Source of the DNA: an unicellular cyanobacterium SU3
GTDB taxonomy: Bacteria > Cyanobacteriota > Cyanobacteriia > Cyanobacteriales > Microcystaceae
Reading direction: 5' to 3'
Length of the DNA stretch: 64,000 nucleotides
Assembly: GCA_002172675.1 (NCBI GenBank)
Contig: NETF01000109.1
Span: 1-64,000 of the forward strand
Part shown: one piece after another, positions 9,549 to 30,368 of the stretch
Layout of the letters: each line of letters begins with the position of its first letter
How positions within the stretch are numbered: the stretch's first letter is position 1
Position numbers and translations under genes: made by a program
The notes under the pieces: model-generated
The model's database searches: none
What the model saw: only the letters and a program-made list of their open reading frames with translations
Told to the model about the DNA's origin: nothing

Positions 9549-9857
9549 ATGGAATTTGGAGACTCTAAACACCAACAACTTCCGGTCAGCTTACCTGGCG
9601 GAACTTTGATCAAAGTAGAAGTCCAACAAACTGGAAGAGAAGATGTGGCATTTGACATTAAACCCTTTAGCCAAGTTACCAAAGCCCTAGAAGAAATTAC
9701 CACAGCTTTAGCAGAAACTTTACAAAAGACTAAACCCGATAAAGCTTCTATTAAATTTGGGTTAGAATTAGGCATAGAAAAAGGAGAACTCATTGCCATC
9801 ATTGTCAAAGGCTCAGGTAAAGCTAACTTAGAAGTCACCCTAGAATGGGGCCGATAA
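9549..9857 (+). CDS. Trypsin-co-occurring domain protein (Trypco1-like)
   Basis: 102 residues. The pattern LPVSLPGGTLIKVEVQ, then FDIKPFSQVTKALEEITTAL, then IKFGLELGIEKGELIAII and a final LEVTLEW matches the small alpha/beta domain known as trypsin-co-occurring domain 1. That domain is typically encoded next to trypsin-like proteases in predicted NTP-dependent conflict systems. Here the next gene, 66 bp downstream, begins with exactly such a protease. The domain's molecular role is not established; it is thought to regulate or present the protease. Confidence 0.85.
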   Translation: MEFGDSKHQQLPVSLPGGTLIKVEVQQTGREDVAFDIKPFSQVTKALEEITTALAETLQKTKPDKASIKFGLELGIEKGELIAIIVKGSGKANLEVTLEWGR

Positions 9858-9923
9858 CTCAATTTTTCTCAGTTCTACTCCGTTGTTGTCATCCCTAACA
9901 GAATCTTTTAATGATTAAATAAG

Positions 9924-12497
9924 ATGGGTCAATCACTCGAAAGACTCTTACAACGTTGTGCTGTGAAAATCATTGTCCCTGGCCAAAGGGGTTGGGGAAC
10001 AGGCTTTAGCGTCGCTCCCAGACAAATTTTAACTTGTTTCCACGTGATTAAAAATGCCCCAAACGGACGGGTAAGTGTCAGTTGGGAAACTCAGGAAAAG
10101 GTTGCTGAAGCTACCATAGACAAGTATGATGAAGGGTTAGACATTGCCCTCCTGACATTGACTCATTGGGGTGACGACCTTCCTTGTGTTGATCTCGATC
10201 GCACCTTTCAAGCAGACGATCGATTTTACATCTACGGTTATCCTGACGACTTTCCTGATGGGGCTTCGGTAACAGTCCAATGCGAAGGAACCGCTCAAGA
10301 TCAACAAACCCTAATTAAATTTAAAGCCGGACAAGTGCGGCCAGGATTAAGCGGTTCCCCAATTTTAAATCAACGCACTGGGAAAGTGTGCGGTATGGTC
10401 AAATTTACCCGTGATCGCAGTTTTGATCTAGGGGGTGGGGCGATTCCGGTTGAAACCATTTTAACCACCTTTACCCACCTCACCGAAGAACAACATCGTT
10501 ATCATCAAAATAACCCTCAATGGCGATCGCTACTCCCCCAGTCTTCTCGTTTCCCTCATCTCACCCGTCAAGAGTATCGTAACCGTCAGGCCCTAATCAA
10601 TAAAGTCAATCACTATTGGATAGAAGGGGTTCTCGAAACTTCCCTCCCTGATCATCAGTCCATTGCCTTAAATTTAGAAGAAAGACCCTTAGCCCTCAGT
10701 AGTCAGTCTAATCTAGTGGCTGAGTTTATTGATAACCCTGAGATTCCCCTATCGCCAGACACCACTGTTCTCGATATCTTCGATCAATTAGGGGCCGGAC
10801 GTACCCTTTTAATTTTAGGGCAACCTGGATCAGGAAAAACCATGACCCTTTTGCAGTTAGGAAAAGAATTGATTAGACGGGCCCAAGAAGATGCTCAACA
10901 GTTAATTCCCGTCGTCTTCAACCTCTCCTCTTGGGCCGATGAAAAACCACCCATCGATCAATGGATTGTCAAAGAATTACACAGCAACTATCAAGTCCCT
11001 GAAAAAATGGGACAAACTTGGGTACAACAAGAGCAACTGTTATTTTTATTAGATGGCCTCGATGAAATTCTCACCAAAGAGTCTCAAGAAGCTTGCATCA
11101 AAGCCATCAACCAATTTCATCAAGACTTTGGTTCTCCAGAAATAGTGGTTTGTTGTCGAGATAACGATTATTTTGCTTTATCTGAACGCTTAAACCTAGA
11201 AAGTGCTATTTATTTACGTTCCCTCAGTTTAGAACAAATTGACCACTATTTAAGCCGATTAGAGAGTGAACTGTCTGCTTTACGAACCATCATTAAACAG
11301 GATTCTGTTTTGCAAGAATTAGCCACATCTCCTTTAATGCTCAATATTATGGCGATCGCCTATCAAGGATTAGCCATTAAAGACGTATCAACTTCTGGTG
11401 TCATTGAAGAACAAAGGCAACAAATTTTTAATGCTTACATTCAACGAATGTTCAAGCGTCCTCGTAACAATCCCGGTCATTATTCTCAACCAGACACCAT
11501 TACTAAGTTAGCCTGGTTAGCACAACAAATGTCAAAATTTTCTCAAAGTATCTTTCTCATTGAAAGGATGCAACCTAGCTGGTTAGGTCAGAATAAAGAC
11601 CAATGTTTATATACAGTGGGAGTCCGTTTTGTCATCTTTTTTATCTGGAGTACAGTTCATATCAGTTTATTAGGATTTCATCATAGTTTACTAGAGAGAA
11701 TTCCCTATGATCCTACTCCCTTAGAAATGATAAGTTATGCTCTTATTGCCGCCCCCATAGGAGCCATCCTTTATGCGTTATTTGGTAGTTTAATTGATCA
11801 ATATGTCCATCAATTTACTGGCTTAATTAACGGTTTATTTTTAGGGATAATTTATGGATTAATTTTTGGCATTCTTTGGCAAACTCTTCCTATGGGAATT
11901 GCTTATGGGATCATCTATGGATTAGTGGGTTGTTTAATTGATCGATCCATCAGCCACACGATAGACCCAGTAGAAACCTTTAAATGGTCTTGGAAAAAAT
12001 CAGGACTTTATTTAGCTATCGGATTAATTATTGCCATTAGTCTTTTTTTAGGAGGCACGACTGGGGGTATTATTCAAAGTTTAATTTTTGGAATTATGGT
12101 CTGTTTTATTTTTGTTTTCACCAAAGCAGAAAATATCGATCAAACAACGATTGCTAATCAAGGAATTTGGAAATCAGCCACTAATGCAACTAAAGTATTT
12201 TTAACCATTGGATTATTAACAACAGTGCTTTTAACCCTTGTGGAGAATTTAACCTCTGGTTTAGTTAATGGTTTAATTTTAGGACTATTGGGGGCATTTT
12301 TAGGGGCGCAACTATCAGGAATAGTTTGTATTCAGCATTTTGTTTTACGACTGATTTTATGGAAAAAAGGAAAAATTACCTGGAACTATGCTCGCTTTTT
12401 AAACTATGCTACAGCCCGTATTTTTCTGCAAAAAGTAGGAGGAGGTTATATCTTTATCCATCGGAGATTACGAGATCATTTTGCTCAACTTTCTTGA
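9924..12497 (+). CDS. Trypsin-like protease - NACHT NTPase - multi-TM fusion (predicted conflict-system protein)
   Basis: 857 residues. Residues 10-190 are a trypsin-like domain with an intact apparent triad: His40 (ILTCFHVI), Asp73 (GLDIALLTL) and Ser143 (RPGLSGSPIL). Residues 285-520 are a NACHT STAND NTPase with Walker A LILGQPGSGKT (297-307) and Walker B LLFLLDGLDE (372-381). From about 565 to 800 there are roughly eight hydrophobic helices, then a basic C-terminus with FIHRRLRDHFAQL. The layout fits a sensor/switch that uses ATP-driven oligomerisation to activate proteolysis at a membrane. It is the last gene of a three-gene operon and converges on pyrD with 7 bp between the stops. Confidence 0.93.
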   Translation: MGQSLERLLQRCAVKIIVPGQRGWGTGFSVAPRQILTCFHVIKNAPNGRVSVSWETQEKVAEATIDKYDEGLDIALLTLTHWGDDLPCVDLDRTFQADDRFYIYGYPDDFPDGASVTVQCEGTAQDQQTLIKFKAGQVRPGLSGSPILNQRTGKVCGMVKFTRDRSFDLGGGAIPVETILTTFTHLTEEQHRYHQNNPQWRSLLPQSSRFPHLTRQEYRNRQALINKVNHYWIEGVLETSLPDHQSIALNLEERPLALSSQSNLVAEFIDNPEIPLSPDTTVLDIFDQLGAGRTLLILGQPGSGKTMTLLQLGKELIRRAQEDAQQLIPVVFNLSSWADEKPPIDQWIVKELHSNYQVPEKMGQTWVQQEQLLFLLDGLDEILTKESQEACIKAINQFHQDFGSPEIVVCCRDNDYFALSERLNLESAIYLRSLSLEQIDHYLSRLESELSALRTIIKQDSVLQELATSPLMLNIMAIAYQGLAIKDVSTSGVIEEQRQQIFNAYIQRMFKRPRNNPGHYSQPDTITKLAWLAQQMSKFSQSIFLIERMQPSWLGQNKDQCLYTVGVRFVIFFIWSTVHISLLGFHHSLLERIPYDPTPLEMISYALIAAPIGAILYALFGSLIDQYVHQFTGLINGLFLGIIYGLIFGILWQTLPMGIAYGIIYGLVGCLIDRSISHTIDPVETFKWSWKKSGLYLAIGLIIAISLFLGGTTGGIIQSLIFGIMVCFIFVFTKAENIDQTTIANQGIWKSATNATKVFLTIGLLTTVLLTLVENLTSGLVNGLILGLLGAFLGAQLSGIVCIQHFVLRLILWKKGKITWNYARFLNYATARIFLQKVGGGYIFIHRRLRDHFAQLS

Positions 12498-26039: not shown

Positions 26040-26606
26040 ATGATCAATTATTTTTATTTGTTTTGTTATTGTTGCTTGAATTTTTTGCTTTTTCCTGCGG
26101 ATATCACAAGTGAGTCTATCGATAAGAATAGGGAACAGGGAATAGGGAACACTAAACAAATAGAATATTTAAGTAGTAACCCGACAATACGCTTTGCTGA
26201 TTCACTGTTGGGGAGTCAACAAGCGGTCAAAAATAATATTGATTCTGATGATTCTTCTAATATTATTGATCACGGTAATTTTATTATTGGCCTTTGGCGT
26301 GGTTTTCATGAATCTGAGGAATTAACTGTTTATTATGGTTATCAGTTTCGTCCTGATGGTAGTTTTTTAGCAAGACATCGTATTTATCAAGATAAAAAGA
26401 GTATTGAGGATATTACTTGGCAAGGAGAATGGCAGTTTATAGATAACACTTTAAAACTAAAAGGGTTTGATTTAAAGGATAAAAATCAATTAGCTACCCT
26501 TGAATTTAAGTTAACTGACACTTTTAAATTGGCGTATGAAACAGGTTCTTTATCTGCTTCTTATCAACAGATGATTTTAAACAAGATTGGTTTTTTCTCA
26601 AATTAG
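26040..26606 (+). CDS. Small secreted protein of unknown function with an in-frame tandem repeat
   Basis: 188 residues. The N-terminal 20 residues are very hydrophobic (FYLFCYCCLNFLLFP) and should act as signal peptide. Residues about 30-38 are encoded by a purine-rich tandem repeat (26128-26151). The C-terminal 100 residues look like a small beta barrel: FIIGLWRGFHESEELTVYYG, YQFRPDGSFLARH, WQGEWQFIDNTLKL, a pattern of lipocalin-like domains. Function unknown. The last 83 bp overlap the 3' end of the convergent NB-ARC gene. Confidence 0.7.
   Translation: MINYFYLFCYCCLNFLLFPADITSESIDKNREQGIGNTKQIEYLSSNPTIRFADSLLGSQQAVKNNIDSDDSSNIIDHGNFIIGLWRGFHESEELTVYYGYQFRPDGSFLARHRIYQDKKSIEDITWQGEWQFIDNTLKLKGFDLKDKNQLATLEFKLTDTFKLAYETGSLSASYQQMILNKIGFFSN
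26128..26151. repeat. Purine-rich short tandem repeat inside a coding region
   Basis: Three consecutive units of ATAGGGAAC / CAGGGA type are read in frame within the secreted-protein gene. The same GGGAAC/GGGAGC type of repeat recurs in intergenic DNA at 37010-37049 and 37117-37135, so this is a family of short tandem repeats in the genome, here captured by a gene. Confidence 0.6.
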
Positions 26607-28827
26607 TAATTTTTTGTATTTGTTTAGGAGCTTTAATGGTTTTAAATAAATCAATTGATTGATCAAAATTATACCTACTTCTATCTTTATATTCTTGTTT
26701 GATCTTTTCCATATCTTGATAAGTTAAAGCAATTTGATAATAAGCTTCTGCAAGATCGCATTTAGCATCAATTTTAGATAAAATATCAATGGATCTTTGT
26801 TGCACTTGAATAGCTTTGTCATAATCTTCTTCTATTCTATAAATTTCACCTAATCCTATTAATGCCTTTGCTTCAACTTGGGGATAATTAGATTCCTTTG
26901 CAAAATCTAATGCCTCTTGATAGTAGTCTCTCGCCGATTTAATTTGTCCTAAATTTTTATAAGTTAAGGCGATGAAAATATAACTATATCCTTGAGTCCA
27001 ATAAATTTGAGAAAGTTTTTCTTGATTTCCATCAAATTTTTTTAAAAATTTTTTAGCATTTTCTGCATCATCAAAATAAGATTTAATAAATGCTAGACAA
27101 AAATATGATTCTACTAATAAATAATTATCCTCTTCATTGTTAGATGCTATTTCACAAACTTGGTTAAATTTGTACTCTGCTTGTTCTATCTCTCCTAAGT
27201 CTAATAAACATAAGCCAATGTTAAAATTAGCACGAGCCTCAAATATATTTTTTCCAATTTTACTTGATTTTTCATGTAATAAAATTGCTTCTCTTGGTTT
27301 ACCAACAGACCAGAAAAAATGGCCTTTAAGATTATAAAGTGTGGCTAGACAAATTGTATTTTTATTGTAATTTTCAATGATTTTATCAATTAACTTAATA
27401 ATTGGTTTAAAAACACCTAACCTATAAAAAGATGCCCCAAGAGGTTCGTTTTTTTCCCATTTATTGTTTCTTTCTTGTGCAATTACTTTACCTGCTTGTT
27501 CATAGTCCTCAATATTTAGATAATGATAACAAGCTTCTAAAGCATATAAAGCATCCTCTAAAGTTTCTACTGTCTCAACACTTTTTGTCCAAAATTTACC
27601 AGCTTCATAGTTAGCTTTTTCCCAATTTTCAGTATTTTCAAGTCTTTCTCTTGCCTCTTGTTTAATCACTGAGTGTAACCAATATTTTCCACTTTCATGT
27701 TCAAGTAAAGCGCGATTTTTTAATCGTTCAATAACTCGCCCTTGTTGTATTTTATCCACATCCCATAATAAACAGAATAATCCTTCTATCGGAACTTTTG
27801 AAATTTCTTGATAACGATAACATCCTAATCTACATAATAAGTTATAAGCATCAATATCTTCTTTTTTTAAGCCTTCAAACTCAGTTGTTACTAAATCTTT
27901 TAATTCTAATTTTATTAATAAATCTTTCTGATTTTCTTGCCAATATTTACTAAGATTATTATCATAGTCTTCTTTGATAGCTCCTAAAAGAATTCTCATT
28001 GCTTTAGCATTACCGCCATAAGCATCCCTCATTGCTTTTAAACTATTACATTCAATGTCAATTTGATGAGAAATAAAATAATTTTTCCAAGCATCTTCTG
28101 TTAATCCGTCTAAAGAATAATAACCTAAGTTAATTGCTGATTCGACTAACTTTTCTCGACTTGTGACTAATGTAAGCGATTGAAGATCAGGATTAGCCAA
28201 AACTCTTAGTAACTCAAGATAATTGCGATGCTCTTTAATGAATTTACCCTTTTCTAATGCCGGCTCTAAGTTATCAATCAAAATACCGATATAATGTTCT
28301 TTTAGCAGTCTTTTTAGTCGATCTAAATTAATAGAAAAGTCTTGGTTAGTTTCTTTGTTAAAGTATTGTTTAATCCATTCCTCCACCACTCCATCAATTG
28401 ATGAAATATTTTGTGTCTCTTTTGCCATCAATAATTCAATTATAAACTCAAACCCCTGGGTTTTTAAGTATTGTTTAGCCAATTCAGTTTTACCAATACC
28501 TCCTGCACCATGAATTAGAATTAATTTATGATTTTGCGTTAAAGTAGCTAGGTCAATTAATGCTTTTTCTCTGCCAACAAAATCTGCAGGATTGTCTATT
28601 TCTTTAGATTTATCTGTAATTTCTTGCCAGTTTAATCCTAAAATATCGCAAAAATCGATGAAATAATTACGATCAATATTATATCCATTTAAAAATTTTC
28701 TTACTGTATCACGAGAAACTCCTAATTCTGTCGCAAAAGCTTGTTGACTCTTGAAACTATTGCGTTTTAGAGCGCTTTTGACTCTTGGAATCTGTTGAAC
28801 GGATACTTTAAGGGATCTTGAAGACAT
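26524..28827 (-). CDS. XRE-type HTH - NB-ARC NTPase - TPR protein (STAND regulator)
   Basis: 767 residues. Residues 26-70 form a helix-turn-helix (SQQAFATELGVSRDTVRKFL). An NB-ARC STAND NTPase follows: Walker A HGAGGIGKTEL (106-116), Walker B GILIDNLEP (181-189) and VTSREKL (221-227). From about 430 to 745 there are tetratricopeptide-like repeats (LYNLKGHFFWSVGKPREAIL, ALIGLGEIYRIEEDYDKAI). This is the domain order of signal-sensing switches that bind DNA or partners after ATP-driven assembly. The last 20 or so residues overlap the convergent gene and may be an extension caused by loss of the original stop. It diverges from the protease operon at 29015. Confidence 0.93.
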   Translation of the reverse strand: MSSRSLKVSVQQIPRVKSALKRNSFKSQQAFATELGVSRDTVRKFLNGYNIDRNYFIDFCDILGLNWQEITDKSKEIDNPADFVGREKALIDLATLTQNHKLILIHGAGGIGKTELAKQYLKTQGFEFIIELLMAKETQNISSIDGVVEEWIKQYFNKETNQDFSINLDRLKRLLKEHYIGILIDNLEPALEKGKFIKEHRNYLELLRVLANPDLQSLTLVTSREKLVESAINLGYYSLDGLTEDAWKNYFISHQIDIECNSLKAMRDAYGGNAKAMRILLGAIKEDYDNNLSKYWQENQKDLLIKLELKDLVTTEFEGLKKEDIDAYNLLCRLGCYRYQEISKVPIEGLFCLLWDVDKIQQGRVIERLKNRALLEHESGKYWLHSVIKQEARERLENTENWEKANYEAGKFWTKSVETVETLEDALYALEACYHYLNIEDYEQAGKVIAQERNNKWEKNEPLGASFYRLGVFKPIIKLIDKIIENYNKNTICLATLYNLKGHFFWSVGKPREAILLHEKSSKIGKNIFEARANFNIGLCLLDLGEIEQAEYKFNQVCEIASNNEEDNYLLVESYFCLAFIKSYFDDAENAKKFLKKFDGNQEKLSQIYWTQGYSYIFIALTYKNLGQIKSARDYYQEALDFAKESNYPQVEAKALIGLGEIYRIEEDYDKAIQVQQRSIDILSKIDAKCDLAEAYYQIALTYQDMEKIKQEYKDRSRYNFDQSIDLFKTIKAPKQIQKITNLRKNQSCLKSSVDKKQIKNLFHTPI

Positions 28828-28876
28828 AGGAGCAAATTAACCCCCTCGGAAATAGGATCTCGACTCTATCTTACCC

Positions 28877-28943
28877 TAAGTCAGTCATCATTTTACTTAA
28901 GTCAGTCAGTAAATCAGTAAAAAATTCCCCACTAACTCAGTCA
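28877..28943. promoter_or_regulatory. Four TAANTCAGTMA direct repeats, candidate operator
   Basis: Copies lie at 28877-28887 (TAAGTCAGTCA), 28898-28908 (identical), 28910-28920 (TAAATCAGTAA) and 28933-28943 (TAACTCAGTCA). The start-to-start spacings are 21, 12 and 23 bp, close to whole helical turns. They fill the gap between the divergent HTH-NB-ARC gene and the protease operon, immediately upstream of the latter's -35 element, so they are the likely binding site of the HTH protein. Confidence 0.55.
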
Positions 28944-28950
28944 TGGAAGA

Positions 28951-28980
28951 TTGATCATAGACTCAGGGGTGGTGTATTAT
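28951..28980 (+). promoter_or_regulatory. Promoter for the small-protein/aspartyl-protease operon
   Basis: TTGATC (28951-28956) and TATTAT (28975-28980) are spaced 18 bp and would start transcription near 28987, about 28 bases before ATG 29015. The direct repeats end 7 bp upstream of the -35. Confidence 0.4.
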
Positions 28981-29014
28981 CGCCATTGAGTTCGTGTATT
29001 GTCAATAATTTGTA

Positions 29015-29281
29015 ATGGTGAAAACAATGACTGATTCTTACACCAAAGAAAAAATAATGGATATTGCAGAGGTATCAGCTGAATATCCTGATCAATGGGT
29101 GCTGATGGAAATTACTGGCAAGGATGATTCTGGTTTTCCAAAAGAAGGAGAAGTTATTGTTCACTCTGACAGTAAAAAAGAAGTATTGCAAGAAGCTAAA
29201 ACGTTAATTAAAAGAAGCAAAGGAGAAAATCGGGACGTATATTGGTTTCATACTGATCCTATTACTCATAACGCCGCATAG
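29015..29281 (+). CDS. Small DUF5678-like protein, first gene of protease operon
   Basis: 88 residues; a second in-frame ATG at 29027 is possible. The core YPDQWVLMEI, then GEVIVHSDSKKEVLQEAKTL, resembles the small alpha/beta domain of DUF5678-type proteins (Trp-Val..., gly-turn, then a helix after His-Ser). The C-terminus DVYWFHTDP is distinctive. No catalytic residues evident. It is followed 42 bp later by the retropepsin-like protease, and its promoter faces the HTH-NB-ARC gene, so it likely belongs to the same module. Confidence 0.65.
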   Translation: MVKTMTDSYTKEKIMDIAEVSAEYPDQWVLMEITGKDDSGFPKEGEVIVHSDSKKEVLQEAKTLIKRSKGENRDVYWFHTDPITHNAA

Positions 29282-29323
29282 ATTCAGAGAAACATAAAGT
29301 AGCAATCAATCTGTATATTTTTA

Positions 29324-29779
29324 ATGATTATCATTGCCGAAAAGAGCTTTGATGCAAATACTTTTAACTTTCCAGGGAAACGTATTTTTCAAGAGCGATC
29401 ATTATGGGTAATTCCTATAAAATTTAGTACCAATGGTATATCTATCAGCTATAATATGTTACTGGATACAGGCTCTGAAATTACCACTCTTGATTCTGAC
29501 GACGCAGAATTAATAACAATCAATAATCCTGAGAAATTCACTCAAGCTAGTGGTGCAGGTGGACAAACATCCTTAATACCAGGTGAAGTAGATGAACTAT
29601 GTATTGGAGACATCACTTTTGGACAATCAACCATACATATAGGACAATTAATACCTCAATTTCGTCAATATAATATATCAGGTATTTTAGGTGCTAATAT
29701 CCTCAACCAAATGAGAATCACCCTTGATTATCCAGAAAAACGTTTAGAAATGAAAAAAAGGTTTGTCCCCTTACAATAA
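29324..29779 (+). CDS. Retropepsin-like aspartyl protease
   Basis: 151 residues. The catalytic motif is YNMLLDTGSEITTLD, a clear Asp-Thr-Gly-Ser as in single-lobe retroviral-type proteases that act as dimers. A glycine-rich turn, ASGAGGQTS, and GILGANILNQMRITLDYPEKRL (ILG plus strand) form the rest of the lobe. No signal peptide, so it is cytoplasmic. In other bacteria such proteases are encoded with small peptidase-co-occurring proteins in predicted conflict systems, as is the case here. Confidence 0.88.
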   Translation: MIIIAEKSFDANTFNFPGKRIFQERSLWVIPIKFSTNGISISYNMLLDTGSEITTLDSDDAELITINNPEKFTQASGAGGQTSLIPGEVDELCIGDITFGQSTIHIGQLIPQFRQYNISGILGANILNQMRITLDYPEKRLEMKKRFVPLQ

Positions 29780-29799
29780 ATACAAAATAAACTAACAAA

Positions 29800-30120
29800 A
29801 TGACAGACTCTTCTCAATCTCAGAAAAAACTAAAAATTGTTTCCCTTGAACCTAAAGTTACTATTATTCAGCAGAATTCTAATGATTCTGAAAAACCACA
29901 AAGTGACAATAATGAAAACGCTGTAATCGTAGCTCCTATCTTCCTTAATAAGGAAAAAGTAATTGAAGATATTGGTGAATTAATTGATAAAGTATATGAA
30001 GAGTTTAATCAAGCTTGTACGAAAAAAAATCTTGATTGGACAGCAGAATTAGAATTAGGGATGGAATTCGGAGTGAAATTTACGGCAAGACTCTCCATTG
30101 CTCCAAAATCTTCTCAATAA
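29800..30120 (+). CDS. Peptidase-co-occurring domain protein (Pepco/Trypco-like)
   Basis: 106 residues. The first 45 residues are polar and probably disordered. Then a helix (KVIEDIGELIDKVYEEFNQA) is followed by DWTAELELGMEFGVKFTARL, the same helix plus FG-containing hairpin order as in the trypsin-co-occurring protein at 9549. I assign it to the peptidase-associated accessory group by this pattern and by its position 20 bp after the aspartyl protease. Function unproven; a protease regulator or substrate-presenter is plausible. Confidence 0.65.
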   Translation: MTDSSQSQKKLKIVSLEPKVTIIQQNSNDSEKPQSDNNENAVIVAPIFLNKEKVIEDIGELIDKVYEEFNQACTKKNLDWTAELELGMEFGVKFTARLSIAPKSSQ

Positions 30121-30163
30121 TGTTAAATATCTTGTTGATAATACATTCAATAAACTATTAACC

Positions 30164-30282
30164 TTATATTGGATCGCTCATTAATAATTTTGCTAAAGTG
30201 TCTAATAATGTTTGTTCGGTATAAGGTTTAGAAAAGTAAGCAGATGCTCCTAAATTCATGATATCTTTACTATTTAGTAAAT
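30164..30282 (-). pseudogene. Response-regulator receiver domain remnant
   Basis: Reading leftwards to the TAA at 30164-30166, the frame encodes DIMNLGASAYFSKPYTEQTL followed by LDTLAKLL. This is the last beta-strand/helix of a CheY-like domain, including the conserved Lys-Pro after the strand. The phosphoacceptor half is gone and no start codon or RBS is present. It lies directly downstream of the protease operon, on the other strand. Confidence 0.7.
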
Positions 30283-30368
30283 GCCTATATTATTTTTCAT
30301 TAATTATCTACAAATTTTTATTATTAAAAAACAGTATTCTTACGGTTTTTAACCTAACGTTAACTTCT

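Follow-up and report, generated by a model that had tools for sequence, protein, structure and literature searches.

The window analysed here, a stretch of 64,000 nucleotides from the unicellular cyanobacterium SU3 (contig NETF01000109.1 of assembly GCA_002172675.1, positions 1 to 64,000 of the forward strand), carries a locus at which the gene for a STAND nucleoside triphosphatase (NTPase) diverges from an operon of three small genes, the middle one of which encodes a retropepsin-type aspartic protease. A reading of the letters alone (the sequence-only reading) had proposed this arrangement as a candidate conflict system, and the four open reading frames (ORFs) lie at exactly the coordinates that it had given. 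Each of the four has homologues in matching order in other genera, which places them well beyond chance. The features of the locus, with protein lengths in amino acids (aa), are:

26592..30355, unstranded: four-gene insertion (the cassette), its left boundary fixed to within a few bases and its right boundary lying between 30121 and ~30355
26524..28827, minus strand: 767-aa protein with XRE-type helix-turn-helix (HTH), NB-ARC-like STAND NTPase and TPRs (ORF, Pfam)
28579..28827, minus strand: N-terminal XRE-type HTH domain, aa 1-83 of the STAND protein
28877..28887, plus strand: operator-like repeat 1, TAAGTCAGTCA
28898..28908, plus strand: operator-like repeat 2, TAAGTCAGTCA
28933..28943, plus strand: operator-like repeat 3, TAACTCAGTCA, ending 7 bp before the candidate operon -35
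28951..28980, plus strand: candidate sigma-70-type operon promoter, TTGATC-18-TATTAT (consensus pattern match only)
29015..29281, plus strand: small partner protein, 88 aa, PDC-M08A-like (ORF, PADLOC)
29324..29779, plus strand: retropepsin-type aspartic protease, 151 aa, single DTG (ORF, Pfam, PADLOC)
29800..30120, plus strand: protein of 106 aa, probably a divergent relative of Trypco1, with a predicted helix and C-terminal beta hairpin (ORF)

Two results are new here, an empty site and a three-repeat operator array, and both favour a reading of the four genes as one unit. Homology of the flanks to a sister genome (G001, L179) stops at window position 26591 and restarts at 30356, the two points lying 2 bp apart there, which delimits a cassette of ~3.8 kb. 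The glycosyltransferase gene of the flank is kept in all seven sister genomes compared, and other sister genomes hold different genes at the cassette's site. Crocosphaera watsonii carries a four-gene copy on another contig and in another neighbourhood, and has yet another gene at the site that matches the cassette site of the window. BLASTP homology to the C. watsonii STAND protein (47% identity) ends at aa 744, the same edge as the left edge of the cassette, and the last ~23 STAND codons (26524-26592) fall in flanking DNA, outside the cassette. Because of the empty site, the edge in STAND homology and the copy at an unrelated site in C. watsonii, genome comparison indicates that the four genes travel jointly as one mobile cassette. 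An origin of the window as a phage or plasmid region was unsupported, the flanks being genes that are syntenic in sister species. Between the operon and the glycosyltransferase gene lies a decayed fragment of a response-regulator receiver domain (30175-30265, minus strand; IMNLGASAYFSKPYTEQTLLDTLAKLL).

The 106-aa protein is rare, being encoded in 5 of 59 relatives, in 3 of 386 genomes of the phylum and at 9 loci when 84,980 species were scanned with sequence seeds, a procedure that may have missed divergent members; no relatives were found in the viral contigs or plasmids searched. At all eight undecayed loci the protease gene stands directly upstream of the 106-aa gene and the gene for the 88-aa partner precedes the protease. 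These loci, namely the window, C. watsonii WH 8501 (G007, L010/L015), Prochloron, Microcystis novacekii, M. aeruginosa, UBA11371, Chroococcidiopsidaceae YX2bin18 and Kaiparowitsia (with the partner fused), keep the three-gene order across distant cyanobacterial families, and decayed copies occur in Okeania and in one Microcoleaceae metagenome-assembled genome (MAG). Plasmid matches to the protease were rejected as relatives, since they are large unrelated aspartyl proteases.

The complete divergent four-gene layout is found also in C. watsonii, at the unrelated site described above. Across the eight operon loci the STAND gene is intact at two (the window and C. watsonii), split or truncated at two (split in YX2bin18, as HTH-NB-ARC plus WD40; truncated in UBA11371) and absent or replaced at four, with no divergent STAND gene at the Prochloron and Kaiparowitsia loci and a different divergent gene pair in its place in Microcystis. 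Some of this damage may be artefactual because WD40 repeats assemble badly; the decayed Okeania locus retains a WD40 remnant on its right side. The divergent unit put forward by the sequence-only reading therefore holds in that it recurs in C. watsonii and moves as one cassette, but the STAND gene does not always belong to it. Neither of the outcomes named at the time as fatal, genes unlinked in other genomes or a 106-aa protein belonging to an unrelated family, came about. The divergent pair in Microcystis (L008:11333-12647, L009:5608-8180) consists of a 138-158-aa protein and a pentapeptide-repeat protein that also has a LeuA dimerisation domain, and the intergenic region there contains CAACAATTATTG repeats.

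The 767-aa protein has Pfam matches to HTH_3 (E 5e-4), NB-ARC/AAA (7e-5 / 4e-6) and TPRs (1e-18), and HTH, P-loop STAND NTPase and TPR superstructure are thus all present, as in MalT/AfsR-like STAND transcription regulators; PADLOC models for the protein yielded nothing beyond generic TPR models. The 187-bp intergenic region that it shares with the operon holds three copies of a repeat with the consensus TAASTCAGTCA; 2 of 300 shuffled sequences gave three copies of a 10-mer with one mismatch. Repeats of this kind also lie in the intergenic regions of C. watsonii and YX2bin18. When the motif was counted in the 300 bp upstream of the HTH start at 33 related HTH-STAND loci from a survey of the HTH domain, 17 matches were obtained in 9.9 kb, versus 9 in 97 kb elsewhere; omission of the two motif-defining loci left 11 matches against 0.86 expected (P 2e-9), and by locus the motif was present at 7 of 31 (P 2e-5), the loci not being fully independent. 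The repeats cluster at about -60 to -120 from the HTH start, at -60, -81 and -116 in the window, -62, -83 and -95 in C. watsonii, -62, -73 and -115 in G433 and -62, -72 and -96 in G030. A pattern search of the window's own 5.6 Mb genome returned a close pair of motif sites at this locus and at one other place.

These repeats support the STAND protein as a DNA-binding regulator, in agreement with the control of the operon by the HTH-NB-ARC protein that had been suggested earlier, and the repeat next to the candidate -35 would lie where activators typically bind. Where the N-terminal domain of the STAND is a different one, other GTC-containing arrays are found upstream, which suggests, in an observation made after the fact, that operator and HTH change together. 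These arrays, of TGTCAGTCGG and AGTCGGAAAAAGTCGG (L109, L110, L111, L115, L125), also suggest that cyanobacterial HTH-STAND proteins generally have autoregulatory operators. The proposition that all STANDs with this NTPase type accompany the operon was rejected, as most have other N-termini and other neighbours.

The identification of the 151-aa protein as a DTGS retropepsin was borne out by a match to Asp_protease_2 (PF13650, E 1.5e-10), and the profile of the family matches retropepsin, Ddi1 and the FIV protease in the PDB. The protein has a single DTG with flanking hydrophobic residues, the catalytic motif lying at codon 48 (position 29465), and a hydrophobic-Gly motif (ILG) in the second lobe; DTG and GxLG are invariant in the alignment of operon-clade proteases. 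Clan AA proteases with one catalytic motif work as homodimers, and because the 151-aa protease has a single such motif it is expected to act as a homodimer. It also matches the PADLOC model PDC-M08B (4.1e-15; homologues 2e-10 to 7e-15).

For the 88-aa protein, the label DUF5678-like did not reach the Pfam cut-off (PF18929, E 0.044, 14.0 bits versus 23.2 bits), but the protein matches PDC-M08A, marginally, at 7.2e-6 (its homologues at 2e-4 or with no match); a genome-wide search with PDC-M08A gave nothing at 1e-4. Its AlphaFold model is a compact alpha/beta fold with a predicted local distance difference test score (pLDDT) of 80, and a fold search against the PDB found nothing above background. 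A survey with PDC-M08B across 292 cyanobacterial genomes yielded seven further small-retropepsin loci (L094-L100), each with a related small protein directly upstream of the retropepsin, the upstream gene at L096 and L100 encoding a longer protein with an end resembling the small partner. One of them, L094, is a second such pair within the window's own genome, on contig 10. Alignments support homology of both genes of the pair with those of the window, the protease being distant (11-16% identity across clades, with shared motifs). Neither a 106-aa gene nor a STAND gene adjoins the pair at any of the seven loci. We regard the 88-aa/retropepsin pair, on these alignments, as a derived offshoot of a wider two-gene module, listed as PADLOC defence candidate PDC-M08, and, because L094-L100 hold the pair alone, the cassette would be the stand-alone type elaborated by two additions. 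At L098 the stand-alone protease has NTG instead of DTG, and at L094 and L099 the pairs adjoin genes that by eye resemble BrnT/BrnA. In Kaiparowitsia implicata (L020:8660-9421) a phycobilisome domain (PF00502, E 2.4e-54) is fused in frame with the small partner, possibly as a bait or target-docking domain.

The 106-aa protein had been likened to trypsin-co-occurring proteins. The window protein has no Pfam match of its own, Trypco1 (PF19493) included, and no PADLOC match. Five of eight members of its family give sub-threshold Trypco1 matches (best E 0.012), and hhalign of the family with Trypco1, using sequences from 24 loci, scored 22.5 (P 0.0018) versus 10-17 for other pairings, Trypco2 fitting worse than Trypco1. 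The structure model, of low-to-moderate confidence, has a helix at 51-75, a hairpin at 78-102 and an N-terminus without clear fold, and being poor returned nothing above background in a fold search against the PDB. The likeness thus persists, weakly, and the protein is probably a divergent relative of Trypco1, not a member. The peptidase beside its gene is a retropepsin, not a trypsin-like enzyme, in all intact loci read.

MalT/AfsR-type regulators combine an HTH, a STAND NTPase and a TPR-type superstructure, with tandem repeats near the target promoter. The cassette STAND protein has the same domain set, and repeats near the candidate operon promoter, but its HTH is XRE-like and N-terminal and a small protease operon adjoins it. 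Avs proteins carry fused effectors; the cassette protein resembles these and other antiviral STANDs as a putative sensor with a repeat superstructure, whereas it begins with an HTH of DNA-binding type and leaves the candidate effector to a separate gene. PDC-M08, like the cassette, has the gene for a small protein immediately before that for a small retropepsin, the match of the 88-aa protein being marginal, but covers only two of the cassette's components, the 106-aa gene and the STAND gene lying outside. PDC systems were proposed through guilt by embedding, and the majority are yet to be validated (PMC12988326); no published mechanism for PDC-M08 and no relevant paper on DUF5678 were found in the open-licence literature, where absence is not proof. 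The conflict systems of Kaur et al. 2020 likewise unite a peptidase, a small co-occurring protein and a regulated NTPase, but the cassette has an aspartic protease instead of trypsin or caspase, and its DNA-binding STAND is separate and on a divergent transcript (PMC7159879); neither the MoxR nor the vWA component of that ternary type is among the cassette ORFs. Kaur et al. define Trypco1/2 with trypsin-like peptidases; the peptidase domains that they list are of the trypsin, caspase and metallopeptidase types, the words aspartyl, aspartic and pepsin occurring 0 times, and they remark that most study of bacterial STANDs has concerned their part as NTP-dependent transcription regulators (PMC7159879). 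Aspartic proteases go unmentioned also in the 2021 follow-up to Kaur et al. and in the DGR paper, and neither a retropepsin nor this gene arrangement was found in conflict-system papers of the open-licence literature, again with absence not being proof. RimB of RimABK is, like the cassette enzyme, a small DTG retropepsin working with operon partners, but the cassette has no RimK-like or phosphodiesterase gene and its partners are other small proteins (PMC11957791).

We propose that the HTH-STAND-TPR protein acts as a MalT/AfsR-like signal-transduction ATPase whose HTH would bind the TAASTCAGTCA repeats between both transcripts and whose TPR part would sense a trigger. NTP-dependent assembly could then raise operon expression and autoregulate the STAND gene, yielding a homodimeric retropepsin and two dedicated small partners. 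The 88-aa protein may be an inhibitor or substrate adaptor of the retropepsin, and the 106-aa protein may link the protease to sensor or target, a role that has been proposed for Trypco1 with trypsin; the released or induced protease would cleave a host or invader protein, such that growth or infection is halted. The comparisons above establish gene linkage, co-mobility and the conservation of catalytic motif and operator. DNA binding by the STAND protein and activation of the operon we infer by analogy with MalT and AfsR, and we likewise infer the roles of the partners, the direction of regulation, the target and the defence function.

In our judgement there is about an even chance that the four genes form a mobile cassette of the conflict type, in which a STAND sensor controls a retropepsin effector with two partners. 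Several observations weigh against it. Most loci that keep the operon have no intact STAND gene beside it, the gene being absent, replaced or damaged, so that the operon must have other control there. Upstream of HTH-STAND genes that lack the operon (L133, L136) the repeats are present as well, and they may therefore serve autoregulation first. The choice of activation over repression is a guess from spacing, the link of the 106-aa protein to Trypco1 is weak and its model poor (pLDDT 60), and no defence phenotype is known, PDC-M08 being an unvalidated computational candidate. What stands of the original conflict-system reading is that the protease and its partner fall in a defence-candidate family; no sequence result shows defence. 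Toxin-antitoxin-like stabilisation, with the 88-aa protein as antitoxin, the retropepsin as toxin and the third gene and STAND as acquired accessories of a mainly selfish cassette, is a rather unlikely alternative that would account for the stand-alone pair at seven further cyanobacterial loci, always with the small protein directly upstream and one of them (L094) in the window's own genome, and for the mobility of the cassette. Two stand-alone pairs adjoin BrnT/BrnA-like genes and one has an antitoxin-like N-terminal extension, both by eye. Such stabilisation sits less well with a 106-aa gene that is as constant as the pair within the derived clade, with the housekeeping neighbourhood of the L097 and L098 pairs, unlike that of typical addiction modules, and with an L098 protease that has lost the catalytic Asp; nor is any toxicity known.

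We consider it unlikely that the cassette serves housekeeping or stress regulation, with the retropepsin trimming a cellular protein, for instance a phycobilisome or ribosomal component, upon a STAND-sensed metabolite. The STAND regulators whose function is known, MalT among them, act in metabolism, and the phycobilisome-domain fusion to the 88-aa partner in Kaiparowitsia points the same way, but this fusion is known from a single MAG. RimB offers the precedent of a regulatory bacterial retropepsin with operon partners (PMC11957791), yet rarity and patchiness (3 of 386 genomes), co-mobility and insertion at a variable site fit accessory conflict genes better. That STAND gene and operon are mere neighbours without functional link, the repeats serving only STAND autoregulation, is quite improbable: the loss, replacement or damage of the STAND gene at most operon loci and the occurrence of the same HTH-STAND type with repeats but no operon would agree with it, whereas the shared promoter region, the repeats by the candidate operon -35 and the joint presence at two unrelated sites argue for a connection.

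Should the conflict-type cassette prove real, retropepsins, which have the HIV protease fold, would join the effectors of bacterial STAND-linked conflict systems, and the locus could provide a small, expressible test case for how DNA-binding STANDs of the MalT/AfsR kind relate to immune STANDs. We regard as possible, if on balance doubtful, the further proposition that it represents a new class of immune cassette, comprising a DNA-binding STAND, an operator array, a retroviral-protease-like effector, an adaptor or inhibitor, a Trypco1-like linker and a partner that can be fused to a host-protein bait or docking domain. A concrete candidate regulator and operator now stand beside PADLOC family PDC-M08.

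Elsewhere in the window, at 9549-12497, the genes for a canonical Trypco1 (102 aa) and, after it, a trypsin-NACHT-like membrane protein (857 aa) make up a conflict pair of textbook type. In other loci (L109, L110, L119, L120, L121, L126, L135) NB-ARC-TPR STAND genes are often divergent from a gene whose small product bears a motif resembling RVRFxGxWWxARC...GxxVRVVxIxxxTLIVEP and is NfeD-like by eye.

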